Origin: Deltaproteobacteria bacterium
GTDB taxonomy: Bacteria; Myxococcota_A; UBA9042; PHBI01
Assembly (NCBI GenBank): GCA_016792665.1
Contig: JAEUKJ010000129.1
Coordinates: 1 to 43,649, forward strand
Reading direction: 5' to 3'
DNA length: 43,649 bases
The position numbers and the translations under genes are program-made. This document shows positions 30,839 to 37,393 of the stretch, piece by piece. Numbering within the stretch: the first letter of the stretch is position 1; every line of letters starts with the position of its first letter. Below the pieces are notes generated by a model. The model searched no databases and had not been told where the DNA came from. It saw only the letters and a list, made by a program, of their open reading frames with translations.

Positions 30839-30862
30839 ATGCCCCTCCTCATGGAGGTCCCG

Positions 30863-31312
30863 ATGGTCCCTGCTCAGTCCCTCTACCGCCGCTTCAAGAA
30901 GGCCTTTCGCCCGATGCTCGCAACCGACCCGGCCCGCACCGACGTCGATTCGCTCATCGTGCTCCGCAGCCAGGTCTTCTCTCGACTCGGCCTGCCGACG
31001 ACGCGCCACAACGTCGAGCGGCTCATCCTCTGCGCAGCCGCCGGGCTCTCGTTCCGTGTCTTCGTCCGCGATCTCGACTATTTCTTTCCGCAGGGTCTGG
31101 TCGCGGACGAAGCCCTCTTCCTCATCGCCTTCGCCGAGCACTGCCGCACTCGCAAGGCCCAGACCAACCGCGCCCGCCGCTACGAGGCCGAGGCCCTCCT
31201 GGGCCTGCCTCATGACGGACACGCGTCACCGGCAATCGACGCGTGGCTCGCCGGCCTCCTCCCCTACTCCGCCCTGCACATGACCCTCAGGACCGAGGCC
31301 GCCGCAGCCTGA
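30863..31312 (+). CDS. Unassigned 149-residue protein downstream of a sigma-54 promoter
   Basis: A basic, mostly helical protein (SLYRRFKKAFRPMLATDPAR, NVERLILCAAAGLSFRVFV, RARRYEAEALLGLP). No family, signal peptide or membrane segment is recognised. GGAGGT at 30852-30857 sits just before the ATG at 30863. The sigma-54 start point near 30848 excludes the in-frame ATG at 30839. In myxobacteria sigma-54 often drives starvation, development or motility genes, so a conditional role is likely. The last codons are duplicated downstream (31330-31407). Confidence 0.68.
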   Translation: MVPAQSLYRRFKKAFRPMLATDPARTDVDSLIVLRSQVFSRLGLPTTRHNVERLILCAAAGLSFRVFVRDLDYFFPQGLVADEALFLIAFAEHCRTRKAQTNRARRYEAEALLGLPHDGHASPAIDAWLAGLLPYSALHMTLRTEAAAA

Positions 31313-31407
31313 CGCGTCGCATACACGTCGCGTGGCTCGCCGGCCTCCTCCCCTACTCCGCCCTGCACATGACCCTCAGGACCGAGGTCGCCGCAGCCTG
31401 ACGCGTC
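31241..31407. repeat. Direct duplication of the gene's 3' end (two 78-bp copies, 89-bp period)
   Basis: Bases 31241-31318 are repeated at 31330-31407 with one difference (C at 31299 against T at 31388). The copy includes the last 23 codons, the stop codon and a few bases after it. The second copy is not part of the coding sequence. The near identity points to a recent event. Confidence 0.85.
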
Positions 31408-31413
31408 AGCCCC

Positions 31414-32040
31414 TCACTCGGCCACGCGCGGCAGCTGCTTCGAGAACCAGCCGCCCGTCAGCGCATCGAGGTCCGCCGTCAGCGCATCCACGCGCAGCTG
31501 CGACTTCACGGCCTTCTCGACCGAGCTGGCCGGATCGAGCTCGAGGTCGACCTGGAGCTGGCGCCGCGCAAAGTAGAGCTTGTTGACCGTGGTCAGCAGG
31601 TCCTCGCGCTGATTGACGATGCGCTCGATCTGGCGCGACGTCGCGATCTGGTCGCGGTTGAAGACGATGCGCGTCAGGTCCCAGTCGGCCTGCAGCTCGA
31701 GGACCATCTGGTTGTCCTTCGACACCAGGTCCGAGAGCGAGCCGCTGCCCGCGCTGGTCGTGCGCACGTCGTTCTGGTCCGCGGTCGTCGACCGCAGACG
31801 ACCACGCAGGCTGCGCGGCAGCACATAGGCCCAGTGCGAGGTCGCGAGCCACCCATCGTACGCATCCGGGTTCACGCGCGCATAGCGCATCGCGGCCTGC
31901 TGGACGTCGACCACGGTCGGCTCGTTGCCGAACTTCTGCAGGACGCGACGGGCTTCGCTCTTCGGATCGGCATGCGCCGGCACCGCCATCGAACCCGCGA
32001 GCAGCACCACCGACCACACCATGACCAGTCTCTTGTTCAT
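31414..32040 (-). CDS. Exported protein, stand-alone copy of a shared unassigned domain
   Basis: A 208-residue protein with a Sec signal peptide (MNKRLVMVWSVVLLAGSMAV, cleaved after AHA near residue 24). The mature 184 residues are mainly helical, with ARVNPDAYDGWLATSHWAYV, LELQADWDLTRIVFNRDQ, YFARRQLQVDLEL and DALTGGWFSK. The whole mature protein aligns by eye with residues 398-577 of the upstream protein. The long helical pair with a conserved WDL and (A/Y)TGG motif resembles TolC-like or other coiled envelope domains, but I cannot assign it. The start lies 3 bases after the upstream stop codon, so the genes are co-translated. Confidence 0.75.
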   Translation of the reverse strand: MNKRLVMVWSVVLLAGSMAVPAHADPKSEARRVLQKFGNEPTVVDVQQAAMRYARVNPDAYDGWLATSHWAYVLPRSLRGRLRSTTADQNDVRTTSAGSGSLSDLVSKDNQMVLELQADWDLTRIVFNRDQIATSRQIERIVNQREDLLTTVNKLYFARRQLQVDLELDPASSVEKAVKSQLRVDALTADLDALTGGWFSKQLPRVAE

Positions 32041-32043
32041 CGC

Positions 32044-33918
32044 TTAATCCCCTGAAAGTCTCGGTAGATCGAAGAGTCTGCCGACGCTCCACATGGCAGC
32101 CGAGGGCCCGTTCGAAGCGGCAGGCGAAGGTCCCTCTCCGGGTGCTTCGCTCTGCGTGGGCGCAGCCTTGGGCGCGTTCTTCGTCGCGCCGTCGATCGGG
32201 AAGCGCCCGCCGGTGTAGACGTGCAGGTCGGCCTCGAGCCGCTGCAACGTCAGGAGGTCCTTCACGGTCTCACGCACGGTGCGCTCGCCCGACGCGGTCG
32301 CGAGCTCGATGCGCTTGCGCGCCCAGTTCTGATAGATCGGCAGCACCACGTCACGGACCTGATCCAGCTGCTTGCGCGCGCGGATGCGCGTCGTCTCGAG
32401 GTTCGTACGGGTCCCCTCGAGCGCCACCGTCAAGGCCGGCATGAGGTCCCAGACCGCGAGCACCAGGAAGTCGTCGTCGCGCGGCCGCACCTGCACCGCA
32501 TCGAGGATGCGCGTGTCGATGGTGGGGATGTACTGGTAGTCCTCGTTGCGCATCCGATTCCAGCGCCAGCGCAGCTGCACCGTCGGGAGCAACCACGACA
32601 AGCGCTCTTCGATGGCCCACGCATCGACCTCGTCCATGTTCACGCCACGCGACTTCGTCGCCCAGCTCCGCACCTCGTCCGCGCTCGGCCACCCCGCCAA
32701 GGCGACCTCGGCCAGCCTCTTGGCCGACGCCCCATAGCTGCCCGAGGCATCCGCGACGAGGCGCCACGCGCCCGACCGACCGACCGCCCACAGCTCGGCG
32801 ACGCCACCGAAGCCCGGTGCGACGTCGAGGAGCCGCCGATCGAAGAGCCCCTCGGTCACGCGCTGCCACCCTTCGTCCGCCTTCCAACGCCAGGCGCCCT
32901 TGGCACCCACCGCCCAGCGCGCGCCCTCGCGCCCCCGCGCCAACCGCGCAGCCCCCGGGACCTTGGTGCTCTCCTCGACGATCGGGACCTCGCCGGCCTT
33001 GGTGCTGATCCTCGCGACCAGCCCCGCGCCCGCCACGAGCAGCGACCCCTCGCCATCGGCGAGCACATCGTAGAGTCCGTTGTCCTCACGACCGCCGACC
33101 GCCAGCCGGTCATACCCATCGACGGACCTCGACGCGATGCGCAATCCGCGCGACGTCGCTGCCACGAGACGCCCGTCGGAGATCACCAGGCCGCGGACCT
33201 GGAGGTCCTCTTCCAGGCCGCGCGCCGCGCGCCCGATCCCGTCCGTCCCGATCTGATAGAGGCCGTTGTCGGTCGCGACCCAGACCCGCCCGTCCGGCGT
33301 GACCGCGACGTCGTTGGCCGCGATCTTCCGACCAAAACGGATCTCGCGCTCGGTCCCCATGCGCCGCGCCGCACGCGCCACCGAGAACAATCCGCGACTC
33401 GTGCAGGCATAGACCACATCGCCGTAGACCCGGATGCGGACGACGCCGAAGCGCTGCTCGGTGCCATCGTCCTCGCCGCCGATGTTCTCGCCGTCGTCTT
33501 CGCCCTCGCGACCGCGGTCATCGCCGGTGTCGACCGTGATCCCGTCCTCTTCTTCGTCGTCCTCACCCGGCTCGTTCAGGTTGGGCGCGCCGACCTCGCC
33601 CTCGTCCTCGTCATCGTCGATGGGCTGGCTGCCGGTCTCGCGCACCTGGCCCGACAGACGCGACATCTGCAGCACCAGATGGAAGCTCTGGCCTTCGTCC
33701 TCCGACACCCAGAGGCTCGTGGCGCTGCCGAGCCACACGACCTTGGGGTTGTCGGGGTCGGTCGCGACCGCGGTCATGCCCGAGCTCGTCGCCACCGGGC
33801 CCGCGGGCTCCCAGGTCTGGGCGCGTGCCACGGGGCTCGTGACACCGACCATGGCAGCGCTTGCCAAGACGATGATGGCAAGGAGGAAGCGGTGACGGGC
33901 GGAGATCGAGACCACCAT
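32044..33918 (-). CDS. Exported beta-propeller protein with the same C-terminal domain
   Basis: A 624-residue protein with a signal peptide ending near residue 33 (PVARAQT). Residues 36-90 and 165-395 look like beta-propeller blades of the two-component-regulator-propeller or BNR type (GRVWVATDNGLYQIG, LVAATSRGLRIAS, GVAELWAVGRSGAWRLV). Residues 99-155 are an Asp/Glu-rich linker inserted between blades. Residues 398-577 match the downstream protein, and the last 45 residues are a Pro/Ser-rich tail. It is likely periplasmic or surface-bound. The ATG at 33918 is chosen because an upstream in-frame ATG at 33957 lacks any ribosome site. It follows the DUF3037 gene by 66 bases. Confidence 0.75.
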   Translation of the reverse strand: MVVSISARHRFLLAIIVLASAAMVGVTSPVARAQTWEPAGPVATSSGMTAVATDPDNPKVVWLGSATSLWVSEDEGQSFHLVLQMSRLSGQVRETGSQPIDDDEDEGEVGAPNLNEPGEDDEEEDGITVDTGDDRGREGEDDGENIGGEDDGTEQRFGVVRIRVYGDVVYACTSRGLFSVARAARRMGTEREIRFGRKIAANDVAVTPDGRVWVATDNGLYQIGTDGIGRAARGLEEDLQVRGLVISDGRLVAATSRGLRIASRSVDGYDRLAVGGREDNGLYDVLADGEGSLLVAGAGLVARISTKAGEVPIVEESTKVPGAARLARGREGARWAVGAKGAWRWKADEGWQRVTEGLFDRRLLDVAPGFGGVAELWAVGRSGAWRLVADASGSYGASAKRLAEVALAGWPSADEVRSWATKSRGVNMDEVDAWAIEERLSWLLPTVQLRWRWNRMRNEDYQYIPTIDTRILDAVQVRPRDDDFLVLAVWDLMPALTVALEGTRTNLETTRIRARKQLDQVRDVVLPIYQNWARKRIELATASGERTVRETVKDLLTLQRLEADLHVYTGGRFPIDGATKNAPKAAPTQSEAPGEGPSPAASNGPSAAMWSVGRLFDLPRLSGD

Positions 33919-33984: not shown

Positions 33985-34368
33985 CTATCGGACGAGGCGC
34001 TCGAAGAGGTGGTCGAGGCTCTTGGCTGGGTCCTGGCACAGCCCCGAATGCACCGCCGACACCTGGAGGATGGTGCTGCGCGGGGCCACGAGCCAGTGCC
34101 AACGCTCGCGCTGCGTGAGGCGCGCGACCGGCCCGGCGGCGGCCTCGCCACGCGCGACGCGCGCGAACGCGTCCAGGTGATCGCGCACCAGCTCGACGTC
34201 GAGCTCTGGCCAGAGCGCCTTCAGCCGCGCCTCGTCGACCGCGATCCGCACGGCGAGGTAGTCGCACTTCAGCGCATAGAGCACGACGCCGACGTTCATC
34301 AGCTCGCCGCGATCGATGCGCGGGACCACGCGCACCATCGCGTAGTCAAACGTGGTGCGCTCGGGCAC
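33985..34368 (-). CDS. DUF3037 family protein
   Basis: A 127-residue protein starting from a GTG at 34368 with GAGGAGG just upstream; the ATG at 34386 is in frame but lies above that ribosome site. TTFDYAMVRVVPRIDRGELM and NVGVVLYALKCDYLAVRIAV are the DUF3037 signature. The family often lies next to a HipA-like kinase gene, as here. Its activity is unknown. It overlaps the upstream kinase gene by 23 bases. Confidence 0.85.
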   Translation of the reverse strand: MPERTTFDYAMVRVVPRIDRGELMNVGVVLYALKCDYLAVRIAVDEARLKALWPELDVELVRDHLDAFARVARGEAAAGPVARLTQRERWHWLVAPRSTILQVSAVHSGLCQDPAKSLDHLFERLVR

Positions 34369-35179
34369 GGGCCGCCTCCTCGGCAAGGTGGGGCAGCGCC
34401 TCGACGCGCGCCGTGAGCCAGGCCGCGTACTGCTCGCGGCTCGGCAAGGTCATGTGCGCCCCATCGAGCCACGTGTCGGGGATCGCCGCGCACAGCGCCG
34501 CGATGACCTCGGGGGTCCAGGCCGCCTGGAGGTCGCCGACCGCTGCCGCCAGGCCACTGGCACGCGACAAGAGGACGTGCCCCCCGAGCCGCGAGAAGGC
34601 CGAGCGCGCACCTGCCAGCGGGGCCTCTTGGCGCCAACCATATTGAAAGTAGAGCGCCGCCCCGTGATCGATGAGCCAGAGCCCGCGCTTGCCGCGCTGT
34701 CCGCCGTCGTGCCACTCGAGCAGGTTCGGGTTCTTGGCGCTGCGATCCGGGTTCGTGATGAACGCATCGAAGAGCACGATGCGCGAGGCGAGCTCGCTCG
34801 AGGGGGCAAGACTCGCCGCGGGGTCGAACGTGATCGAGCCGGGCAGGAAGTCGAGCCCGAGGTTCAGCCCGACGCTCGCTAGCAAGAGGGCGTGGATCTC
34901 CGGATCCGGCTCGTTCCGCCCGAGCGCCGAATCGACCTCGACCAGCACGACCTCCGGCATCGGCAAGCCCGCGGCCCGCGCCAGCCCCGCCGCCAGCAGC
35001 TCGGCCACGAGCACCGGCGTCCCCTGCCCGGCCCCACGCAGCTTCACCACATAGAGCCCGTCGTCGTCGGCCTCGATGAGCCCAGGCAAGGACCCACCCT
35101 CACGCAGCGCCGTCACGTAGCGCGTCGCCACCACCGTGCGCGGCCCCGTGCCGGGTCGCTGCGCCGCCTCAGAACCCAT
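34346..35179 (-). CDS. HipA-like kinase (HipA_2 type)
   Basis: A 277-residue protein of the compact HipA-like kinase group. Key positions are Lys46 in GLYVVKLRGAG for ATP, the catalytic NPDRSAKNPNLL (Asp145, Asn150) and the metal-binding LIDHG (Asp171). HipA proteins phosphorylate partners such as tRNA synthetases, but targets of this small subgroup are not established. The usual HipB DNA-binding antitoxin is absent; instead DUF3037 follows with a 23-base overlap. The ATG at 35179 lies within the last codons of tonB (11-base overlap). Toxin-antitoxin function is possible but not shown. Confidence 0.8.
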   Translation of the reverse strand: MGSEAAQRPGTGPRTVVATRYVTALREGGSLPGLIEADDDGLYVVKLRGAGQGTPVLVAELLAAGLARAAGLPMPEVVLVEVDSALGRNEPDPEIHALLLASVGLNLGLDFLPGSITFDPAASLAPSSELASRIVLFDAFITNPDRSAKNPNLLEWHDGGQRGKRGLWLIDHGAALYFQYGWRQEAPLAGARSAFSRLGGHVLLSRASGLAAAVGDLQAAWTPEVIAALCAAIPDTWLDGAHMTLPSREQYAAWLTARVEALPHLAEEAARARAHHV

Positions 35180-36269
35180 CGGGCGTGAACTCGACGTCCC
35201 AAGGGACCCACGACTCGACCGCCACTCCGTCGAGCGTCGCTGGCTCGAAGACCGCGCGCATGCCGACCTCTTTCGCCTCGCGGTCGAAGGCCGGTCCGGC
35301 CCCGCGCACGACCTTGGCCTGCTTCACGCGACCGTCGGTCCCGACCAGCAACGACAAGCGCACGATCACCGCGCCCGCCCGCGGCGGCGCGTCGGCCGGC
35401 CACTCGCCGCGTGGCCTCACCTTCACGCGCGCGGCCACCCGCTTGACCTCGCGGATCTCCGCGATCCCGCCCCCCGTGCCGCCGACGACACCGTCGTCCC
35501 GACGCGGTACCGCGACATCTTCGACCGGCTTCTTCGTGATCGACGGGTCTCCCAACGAGTCGATCTCACCGCTCAAGATGGCCATGCCGCCGCCTTGGAC
35601 CGTGCCGAGGCCAGCCAGCGCCAGGGCGACCGGCTCGGGCGGCTTCTTCGGGCCCTCGGGCTTGGGCTTCTTCGGCGTCGCCCGATCGGGCGCGGGCTTC
35701 GGAGCCTCGACCACGACCGGCTCGGGCGGCTTCACCACCTCGGGCTCAGGCGGCTTCACCTCCGGCTCGGGCGGCTTCACCACCTCGACCTTCGGCAGCA
35801 CCAGGGCCACGTCCTCGGGCTTCACGAGCTTGGGCACGAGGCAGCTCGGCGTCTCGTCGTCGACCGCGACCGTGCGCGGCCCGACCTTCCACGCGACCCC
35901 CTCGCCCTTCTTCGCCGTCACGACGAAGGCCGAGTCCGGGTAGGCCCCGCTCGACCCGGGCGCGAAGTGCGTCGGCCTGCGCTCGGCCCCACCGGCGCTG
36001 GCCGGCAGGATGGCGTTGTCCTCGCCGAAGGGTACGTCGACCGCCTCGGCCTCGGTGTTCGTGAAGCCGAAGTGCACCGCCATGCCGCCCGTGCCGAGCG
36101 GCATCACGCACAAGATGCGCGGTCGCACCGGGTGGTAGCGGGCCTCGATCCCCCACGCCAGGAGCCCCAGCAGCACCGCACCAGAGGCCACCGCGATCGC
36201 GAAGCGCGCGCCGCCGCTCAACGTCGCAGAGCGAGCCTTCGATCCCCTTGCCGGTGCCTGCGCCACCAC
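35169..36269 (-). CDS. TonB-type energy-transducer with an extra periplasmic domain
   Basis: A 366-residue protein. Residues 22-41 are the single membrane anchor (RFAIAVASGAVLLGLLAWGI). Residues 43-150 form an extra segment (MAVHFGFTNTEAEAVDVPFG) not seen in classic TonB. Residues 158-213 are the Pro-rich rod (PPEPEVKPPEPEVVKPPEP). Residues about 275-366 are a TonB C-terminal-like domain ending VAVESWVPWDVEFTPDGF, which in TonB touches outer-membrane receptors. The start is a GTG at 36269, one base after the exbD stop. With ExbB and ExbD it should use the proton-motive force to act on an outer-membrane partner, none of which is encoded here. Confidence 0.8.
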   Translation of the reverse strand: MVAQAPARGSKARSATLSGGARFAIAVASGAVLLGLLAWGIEARYHPVRPRILCVMPLGTGGMAVHFGFTNTEAEAVDVPFGEDNAILPASAGGAERRPTHFAPGSSGAYPDSAFVVTAKKGEGVAWKVGPRTVAVDDETPSCLVPKLVKPEDVALVLPKVEVVKPPEPEVKPPEPEVVKPPEPVVVEAPKPAPDRATPKKPKPEGPKKPPEPVALALAGLGTVQGGGMAILSGEIDSLGDPSITKKPVEDVAVPRRDDGVVGGTGGGIAEIREVKRVAARVKVRPRGEWPADAPPRAGAVIVRLSLLVGTDGRVKQAKVVRGAGPAFDREAKEVGMRAVFEPATLDGVAVESWVPWDVEFTPDGF

Positions 36270-36270
36270 C

Positions 36271-36717
36271 TCACTCGATCTCCATCGGTTTGGTGTTCAT
36301 TCCGACGTTGCCGACCCCGAGCACGCGCAGCGTGTCGACGACGGTCAGCACCGCCCCATGGGTCAAGCGCTCGTCGGCCGCGACAAAGGCCTCGAGGGTC
36401 TTGCCGTCGCGCTGGAGCTCTTTCACGCGTGCCTTCACGGCGTCCAGCGTGGACCGCTCGCCATTGAGGAACAAGGTCCCGTCCCGGTTCATCGCGATCG
36501 AGAGCAGCGAGGTGTTCGTCTCTTCGGCCGACGCGGCCTTCGGGAGCTGGATCGGCACGTTCTTCGGCAGGACCTTCTCGACGTCCTTCTCGTCCTCGCG
36601 CACGAACTCGGTCGTCACCATGAAGATGATGAGGAGCACCAACGCGATGTCGACGAAGGGGACGATGTTGATCTCGTTGAACCCATCATCGTCATTCGAC
36701 TGCGCGCCACCGGCCAT
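36271..36717 (-). CDS. exbD: ExbD/TolR family biopolymer transport protein
   Basis: A 148-residue protein with one membrane helix near the N-terminus (INIVPFVDIALVLLIIFMV) containing the essential Asp of the family in PFVDIALVL. The periplasmic domain (LFLNGERSTLDAVKARVKEL, VLTVVDTLRVLGVGNVGM) has the ExbD/TolR fold. It shares the inner-membrane proton channel with ExbB and energises the TonB-type protein. It starts one base after the exbB stop codon and ends one base before the TonB GTG. Confidence 0.92.
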   Translation of the reverse strand: MAGGAQSNDDDGFNEINIVPFVDIALVLLIIFMVTTEFVREDEKDVEKVLPKNVPIQLPKAASAEETNTSLLSIAMNRDGTLFLNGERSTLDAVKARVKELQRDGKTLEAFVAADERLTHGAVLTVVDTLRVLGVGNVGMNTKPMEIE

Positions 36718-36718
36718 C

Positions 36719-37393
36719 TCAGCGTCCCCCGCCCGACGGCCCGCGCGACTTCAGGTGCGCCATCAACATGCGCGCCATGCTCTCGGTCTCCGACGCCATG
36801 ACCTTGATGCGGTTCTTGAAGACGTTGAAGGCCACGACCGACGGAATGGCGACCCCGAGGCCGACCGCGGTCGCGACCAGCGCCTCGCCGATCTGCGCCA
36901 TGACCTTGCCCTTCAGCTCGGCCCCCTCGAGCCCGCTGCCGAGCGCCGCGAACGCGGTCAGGATGCCGATGACCGTGCCGAAGAGCCCGATGAACGGGGC
37001 GGAGTTGCCGAGGGTCCCGAGGATGGGCAGCCACCGATCATAAGAAGTGCGCTCGCGCGTGATGGCCGCCTGCACGACCTCCTCGACCGACTCGACCCCG
37101 TCGTCCCACGCGTCCAGGGCCGCGTTCAGGACCCCACCCGTCATCCCGCCGAGCCCGCTCACACGCTCGCGCGCCTTGGCGGGCCCACCCTCGCGGACGG
37201 CCTGGATGACCTGCTTCGAGAGGGCGTTCGCGTCGACGCGGTGCTTCGAGAAGAAGAGCGCACGCTCGACCACCACGATGATCGCCACGAGCAAGAGCCC
37301 GAGCAGCAACCAGAGCACCCAGTCGGCCCCCAGCGATTCGAGGAACTGGGCGAGCTTGTCGGTCAACGAGCCGAGTAGAACCATCGTATCCAT
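36719..37393 (-). CDS. exbB: ExbB/TolQ/MotA family proton channel protein
   Basis: A 224-residue protein with three membrane helices: WVLWLLLGLLLVAIIVVVER at the N-terminus, LGNSAPFIGLFGTVIGILTA in the middle, and ALVATAVGLGVAIPSVVAFN. The GNSAPFIGLFGTVIGI segment is the ExbB/TolQ signature. It forms the inner-membrane proton channel with ExbD. The start is uncertain between ATGs at 37393 and 37384; GGGGAG lies upstream of both. It is the first gene of the run exbB-exbD-tonB-HipA-DUF3037 and is divergent from ruvC across about 100 bases, where its promoter should be. Confidence 0.92.
   Translation of the reverse strand: MDTMVLLGSLTDKLAQFLESLGADWVLWLLLGLLLVAIIVVVERALFFSKHRVDANALSKQVIQAVREGGPAKARERVSGLGGMTGGVLNAALDAWDDGVESVEEVVQAAITRERTSYDRWLPILGTLGNSAPFIGLFGTVIGILTAFAALGSGLEGAELKGKVMAQIGEALVATAVGLGVAIPSVVAFNVFKNRIKVMASETESMARMLMAHLKSRGPSGGGR

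Follow-up and report, generated by a model that had tools for sequence, protein, structure and literature searches.

A single TolC-like repeat, alone or fused to a β-propeller, suggests a bacterial channel family with half-sized subunits

Tripartite efflux pumps and type I secretion both discharge through TolC-type channels. The protomer of the canonical outer membrane factors (OMFs) carries two tandem repeats, and in the trimer six repeats build a 12-strand membrane barrel with an α-helical tunnel below it. YadA-type trimeric barrels are a further case of one barrel shared by several chains. We know of no description of a one-repeat form of TolC; neither such a form nor the propeller fusion reported here was found in our literature search, which covered mainly openly accessible papers. 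The pseudosymmetry of the OMF protomer is attributed to gene duplication in PMC8277102 (section 6.2 and the legend to Figure 28).

Here we describe two adjacent genes in the window, the whole stretch of 43,649 nucleotides of a deltaproteobacterial contig (JAEUKJ010000129.1) that was analyzed. Their products and relatives suggest an overlooked channel family with half-sized subunits in several bacterial phyla. F is the upstream gene and S the downstream gene, both on the minus strand; an earlier note had placed them 3 bp apart, and this spacing is confirmed (Table 1). The N termini of both proteins resemble Sec signal peptides, which they probably are, judged by eye. Just downstream of S, on the opposite strand, lies a 157-aa plus-strand ORF (window positions 30839-31312), at the 3' end of which is a direct repeat of 82 nt (98% identical, spacing 89) at positions 31237-31407.

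Table 1. Positions in the window of the F and S genes and of their observed and predicted parts
Feature	Positions	Strand	Basis
S protein (P0001), 208 aa, exported lone repeat	31414..32040	-	ORF; signal peptide by eye
F protein (P0002), 624 aa, exported propeller plus repeat	32044..33918	-	ORF
Gap of 3 bases, F stop to S ATG	32041..32043	-	F and S in same frame
S probable Sec signal peptide, residues 1-24	31969..32040	-	Sequence read by eye
F probable Sec signal peptide, residues 1-33	33820..33918	-	Sequence read by eye
S OEP/TolC-like single repeat, residues 39-200	31441..31926	-	Profile match; AlphaFold2 pLDDT 85.7; hhalign with OEP
S predicted membrane-hairpin strand 1, residues 77-84	31789..31812	-	Model and alternation pattern
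S predicted membrane-hairpin strand 2, residues 112-119, then W120-D-L	31684..31707	-	Model and alternation pattern
S long helix, counterpart of OMF H3/H7, residues 129-168	31537..31656	-	Model; counterpart lengths from PMC8277102, section 6.2
S short helix, counterpart of OMF H4/H8, residues 174-195, precedes TGGWF end	31456..31521	-	Model
F β-propeller, residues 34-395	32734..33819	-	Structural match and PDB sequence relatives
F acidic insert inside propeller, residues 87-155	33454..33660	-	Sequence; pLDDT under 50
F OEP/TolC-like single repeat, residues 413-568	32215..32682	-	Profiles and joint model
F predicted hairpin strand 1, residues 446-464	32527..32583	-	Joint model
F predicted hairpin strand 2, residues 469-489	32452..32514	-	Joint model

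BLASTP aligned residues 41-207 of P0001, almost all of mature S, with residues 411-586 in the C-terminal part of P0002 at 25% identity (E value of 7e-4 for the single pair). When P0002 was searched against all six frames of the window's genome (7.25 Mb, 85.6% complete), P0001 was the sole match (E = 0.0018), and a search of that genome with S gave no further significant copy. Profile A3, built from the 81 domains of lone-repeat and single-fusion type and free of propeller-partner (F) rows, found the window's F domain in the whole genome at an E value of 5.1e-12; profile-profile comparison of A3 with the F-family profile A4 gave a probability of 99.9% and an E value of 3.9e-32 over 166 columns. 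The order of helices and strands is the same in the predicted S and F domains. The homology of the two domains is well beyond chance, which strongly supports the note's claim of a shared domain, and its description of one gene carrying the domain alone and the other fusing it to a propeller with an acidic insert holds as well.

A match to S alone was found in 38 of 89 genomes, the window's genome included, and a match to the 81-row profile in 97 of 141 genomes of the phylum. Iterated profiles were run over 120 related loci: the best 80 of 143 confirmed in one scan of named genome contigs, and 40 neighborhoods from the window's own wider group. Among the best 80 of 143, 34 contain two family genes, adjacent, F then S, on one strand; 40 encode the propeller-repeat fusion as one gene (one of them, L111, is cut by a contig end), and 6 encode a lone repeat, which at L117 is next to a separate propeller gene. 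Judged by the record titles of these 80 loci, the fused form occurs in Omnitrophota, Nitrospirota, a few “Deltaproteobacteria,” a single Elusimicrobia record, and a single Deferribacteres record (on two contigs); the pair occurs in Myxococcota and under the titles proteobacteria and unclassified. The 40 neighborhoods of the wider group comprise 15 pairs, 6 fusions, 1 lone repeat accompanied by a separate propeller, and 18 repeats without a recognized propeller; some of these 18 are cut by contig ends, and at least one (L059) has a long N-terminal part that was missed by the propeller profile. The pair is therefore common but not obligatory, since fusions and lone repeats are also found.

Each family protein of the 120 loci, like S and F themselves, contains one repeat, and two repeats occur only on two genes. 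Copy number was checked in 20 genomes. The 12 one-gene genomes hold one copy each, even in Omnitrophota assemblies of ∼1 Mb, except G093, which holds two; of the other 8, six have S and F, and G103 and G104 gave one match at the threshold used. The G103 locus (L129) does carry a diverged F, and G104 is a lone-repeat genome. The two fused-gene copies of G093, a Deferribacteres-titled MAG, lie on two contigs (L154 and L158) and are both nested among Nitrospirota sequences, possibly as a result of a mixed bin. The pair is also carried by two MAG records titled Klebsiella pneumoniae (L119 and L152); these titles are probably wrong, since the two group with unrelated records in the tree.

An unrooted tree of the 116 domains has a single branch (support 99/94; 98% of bootstrap trees) that separates all 35 F rows from the S, fusion, and lone-repeat domains. 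The long branches are those of the F domains, which have diverged much faster than S. The simplest reading of these sequences is one duplication, with F retaining the propeller and changing fast and S retaining the conserved repeat; other orders are possible, as the tree is unrooted. It is plausible that F and S form a heteromeric envelope complex, in which they would be two half-size repeats of a TolC-like channel; against this, lone repeats are also found with no partner. A variant, also compatible with a scaffold function (see below), is that F and S are separate homo-oligomers with different jobs, adjacent only because they arose by duplication. The faster divergence of F favors this variant, as does the fact that one-gene genomes get by with a single protein, but F and S keep strict order and adjacency in all 34 two-gene loci within the best 80 of 143, and we regard separate oligomers as unlikely.

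The AlphaFold2 model of the S domain, computed from A3 (81 rows), has a mean pLDDT of 85.7 and a pTM of 0.71. The predicted order is helix-helix-β-β-long helix-helix, with helices at model residues 19-30, 34-47, 105-144, and 150-171 and strands at 53-60, 81-85, and 88-95. Mature F and S were also folded jointly as one artificial chain (alignment A9; 28 rows, 10 of them joint). The resulting model (mean pLDDT of 77.3, pTM of 0.58) comprises a propeller and the domains of F and S. The F domain of this joint model has helices at residues 380-390, 395-410, 472-508, and 515-535 and strands at 413-431 and 436-456, and the elements of the S domain follow in the same order. Two further joint-fold alignments, A8 and A10, were dropped because partner rows had slid into the wrong slot; A7 was dropped too. 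The strands of the joint model are 19 to 21 residues long in F and 9 and 17 in S, while those of S are just 8 residues long in the A3-based model. The predicted models thus have the H-β-β-H(long)-H order of the OMF repeat fold.

Over the 81 rows, the two strands of the predicted hairpin show a strict hydrophobic/polar alternation, as in a membrane β-hairpin. In strand 1, model columns 54, 56, and 58 are hydrophobic in 98, 81, and 88% of rows and columns 53, 55, 57, and 59 in 1, 5, 9, and 5%; in strand 2, the values are 88, 86, 62, 100, and 100% for columns 90, 92, 94, 96, and 98 and 14, 5, 6, 4, and 0% for columns 89, 91, 93, 95, and 97. Aromatics lie near both strand ends (Y/L at column 58, W at columns 90 and 96). 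The alternation is that of an amphipathic transmembrane hairpin, and from it we infer that the hairpin may insert into a membrane.

The hypothesis of a relationship to the OEP repeat arose from the sequence pattern, ahead of the structure searches. An initial OEP profile of 18 repeats from the window's genome was thin, so the comparison was rerun with better alignments; these earlier comparisons had given E values of 0.034 and, with merged domains, 0.0023. Aligned by hhalign with 58 OEP repeats (the 18 from the window's genome and 40 from eleven one-gene genomes), the 116 domains gave a score of 35.6, a probability of 76%, and an E value of 2.2e-5 for a single comparison, against 13.6 for the best of 100 column shuffles and 17.3 for a reversed profile. 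The alignment keeps the register LP, strand, strand, WDL, helix, from before the strand-1 proline into the long helix. It starts at the end of H2 and stops within H3, which leaves about half of the domain unmatched. N-terminal and C-terminal OEP repeats were matched with similar affinity (E = 4.6e-5 and 2.9e-5, respectively). Pfam OEP was also the most frequent weak match in single searches of the members (13 of 81, best E value of 1.9e-4; other families, at most 2 of 81), and the TolC model was the most frequent in NCBIfam (3 of 81, best 0.0029). At the profile level this argues for homology to OEP repeats, with partial coverage and far lower controls. The curated family search returned no OEP match for P0001, P0002, or the cut-out domains; one of the 35 F domains matched OEP, at an E value of 0.07, and the scores shown for two relatives, 16.6 and 13.5 bits, are below the cut-off of 22. 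The first domain profile gave no convincing match in a sequence search of the PDB.

Nine OMF entries were among the 50 rows listed by a VIA structural search, aligned over 130 to 150 residues and one repeat each; they are titled OprN, CusC, VceC, TolC, and OprM, and 5azp, titled Pseudomonas membrane protein, was taken by us to be one as well. Repeats 1 and 2 of TolC aligned separately, and no non-OMF row among the 50 listed exceeded 116 residues. The OMFs are thus the sole near-complete structural matches to the model among the rows listed, with modest Z scores of 4.6 to 6.2, a range that may reflect a common arrangement of helical folds. Foldseek against the PDB gave nothing at E ≤ 0.001 for the S model, with no OMF in the top 50. 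The low VIA Z scores, the Foldseek result, and the failure of the window proteins to reach any curated cut-off would be expected if the resemblance were convergence, a helix-hairpin-helical-bundle fold of independent origin. Such an origin is very improbable, however: the profile match is in the correct register and scores well above its shuffled and reversed controls, N and C repeats are matched with similar affinity, and OEP/TolC models are the most frequent weak matches in two libraries.

Section 6.2 of PMC8277102 gives lengths of 13, 23, 67, and 36 residues for helices H1 to H4 of OprM, H2 and H4 together having the length of H3. Their counterparts in the S model measure 12, 14, 40, and 22 residues, so that each tunnel helix (H2/H3/H4, 14/40/22 versus 23/67/36) has ∼0.6 of the OprM length and H2 plus H4 (14 + 22) again roughly equals H3 (40). 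The domain shares with the OMFs (TolC, OprM, CusC, and VceC; Pfam PF02321, OEP, the outer membrane efflux proteins) the helix and strand order of one repeat, with H3 followed by H4, an invariant proline before strand 1, an amphipathic two-strand hairpin, and a hydrophobic end to strand 2; unlike them, the family has one repeat rather than two, lacks the equatorial domain that lies between repeats, has tunnel helices of ∼60% of the length, and often has an N-terminal propeller. We consider the domain very probably homologous to the OEP repeat. It was not classed as a member of PF02321, because the two tandem repeats of that family are lacking and the window proteins fall short of the curated score. 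The pair is real and unrecognized, and its most suitable label is that of a one-repeat variant akin to the OMF fold. The note's “unassigned” stands in that the domain is below every curated family cut-off, but the profile relation, the predicted topology, and the strand alternation all suggest the OEP/TolC repeat. In a tree with N- and C-terminal OEP repeats the domain forms one clade on a long branch, the placement of which is not fixed, so that a form older than the duplication and one secondarily halved are indistinguishable.

In a structural search the joint model matched propellers; its residues 1-362 aligned with WD40-type propellers at a Z score of up to 29.5 (best row), and PDB sequence relatives include the Ycf48 and xyloglucanase propellers. 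One-gene relatives reach the cut-offs for BNR, Sortilin-Vps10, and PSII_BNR. The propeller in the window is diverged, with just a weak Reg_prop match and scores below these cut-offs; its assignment to the Ycf48/sortilin-type BNR propellers is based on the fold of the model and on these relatives. It resembles Ycf48/HCF136 and sortilin/VPS10 in the propeller part and differs in being joined to a TolC-like repeat and in its acidic insert. Acidic low-complexity stretches occur at a similar place in the F proteins of L106 and L144. Some lone-repeat S proteins, apparently exported, carry an HHH_3 module N-terminal to the repeat (L100, L106, L108, L115, L119, L129, and L162; L115 is barely above and L162 below cut-off). 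This module, which we take to be of the ComEA type, is a lead, and a lead only, toward a role in DNA uptake.

Directly upstream of F in the window are HipA_2 kinase-like and DUF3037 genes (positions 33985-35179). The earlier note had the pair following a HipA operon, which is correct as local gene order but not as a conserved arrangement: HipA and DUF3037 occur in 0 of the 120 related loci (best 80 of 143 plus 40), and they were rejected as part of the system. Farther upstream, TonB_C, ExbD, and MotA_ExbB genes stand in a row on the same strand (positions 35169-37393). Clustering of neighbors in the best 80 of 143 loci and the window revealed no conserved transporter or adaptor gene and no conserved neighbor besides the pair itself; a guaA-like gene, judged by eye, was seen in 10 and a secreted cysteine-containing protein in 8. 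Some canonical OMFs are orphan genes too. Canonical OEP repeats are present in the window's genome (24 repeat matches), and canonical OMFs in 11 of the 12 one-gene genomes, the exception being a 0.9-Mb assembly that may be incomplete. The family is therefore not simply a replacement for them.

On balance, we favor the view that the S/F domain is a shortened single TolC/OEP repeat, six of which, on half-size subunits, would form one short channel. This view draws on the domain homology, the predicted fold and strand pattern, the OEP profile relation, the adjacency and order of the genes, and their low copy number. With one repeat per chain, six chains would be needed, as against three in canonical OMFs. 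One-gene genomes would make a homohexamer, of the propeller-repeat fusion with six propellers or of the lone repeat, and two-gene genomes a mixed ring, in its simplest form an alternation of three F with three S, carrying three propellers. The hairpins would lie in the outer membrane, and the tunnel would have ∼60% of the OprM length, because all three tunnel helices are shortened by about one factor. Attached ahead of the first helix, the propeller would ring the periplasmic waist, the site of the equatorial domain in canonical OMFs, and could contact cargo, the cell wall, or an inner-membrane partner. Lone repeats without a recognized propeller count against this model, as do the partial coverage of the profile match, the modest structural and family matches, the short S strands of the A3-based model, the canonical OMFs in the same genomes, and the lack of a conserved transporter or adaptor neighbor in the loci clustered. 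YadA-type trimeric barrels are alike in principle, each of several chains giving a few strands to one barrel; YadA contributes four strands per chain (PMC6340704) and the S/F domain would contribute a two-strand hairpin.

The domain could also be a true remote relative of the OEP repeat that no longer forms a channel. It would then be a scaffold, either periplasmic or anchored in the outer membrane, for display of the propeller (in other species, of a helix-hairpin-helix module), with a function in envelope assembly or ligand binding. The fusion to a Ycf48/sortilin-type propeller or, in some lone repeats, to HHH_3, the shortened helices, and the canonical OMFs in the same genomes would all suit a scaffold, whereas strict alternation and aromatic strand ends are required of a membrane barrel and would probably have been lost in a periplasmic scaffold. 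We consider a scaffold somewhat unlikely and retain the channel as the preferred reading, with membrane insertion, channel activity, stoichiometry, and the place and role of the propeller as its conditional parts.

The domain, outside every curated family, would gain an assignable fold, and a function would be suggested for a gene that remains single-copy even in ∼1-Mb Omnitrophota assemblies. If the channel reading is true, a six-repeat channel can be built of separate chains. It is a speculative and rather doubtful extension that half-size-TolC channels, of six chains or of three plus three, are widespread and may predate the duplication in TolC, with F and S a second doubling, on two genes. 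If the family is still one-repeat, the duplication origin of TolC protomers would be directly testable.
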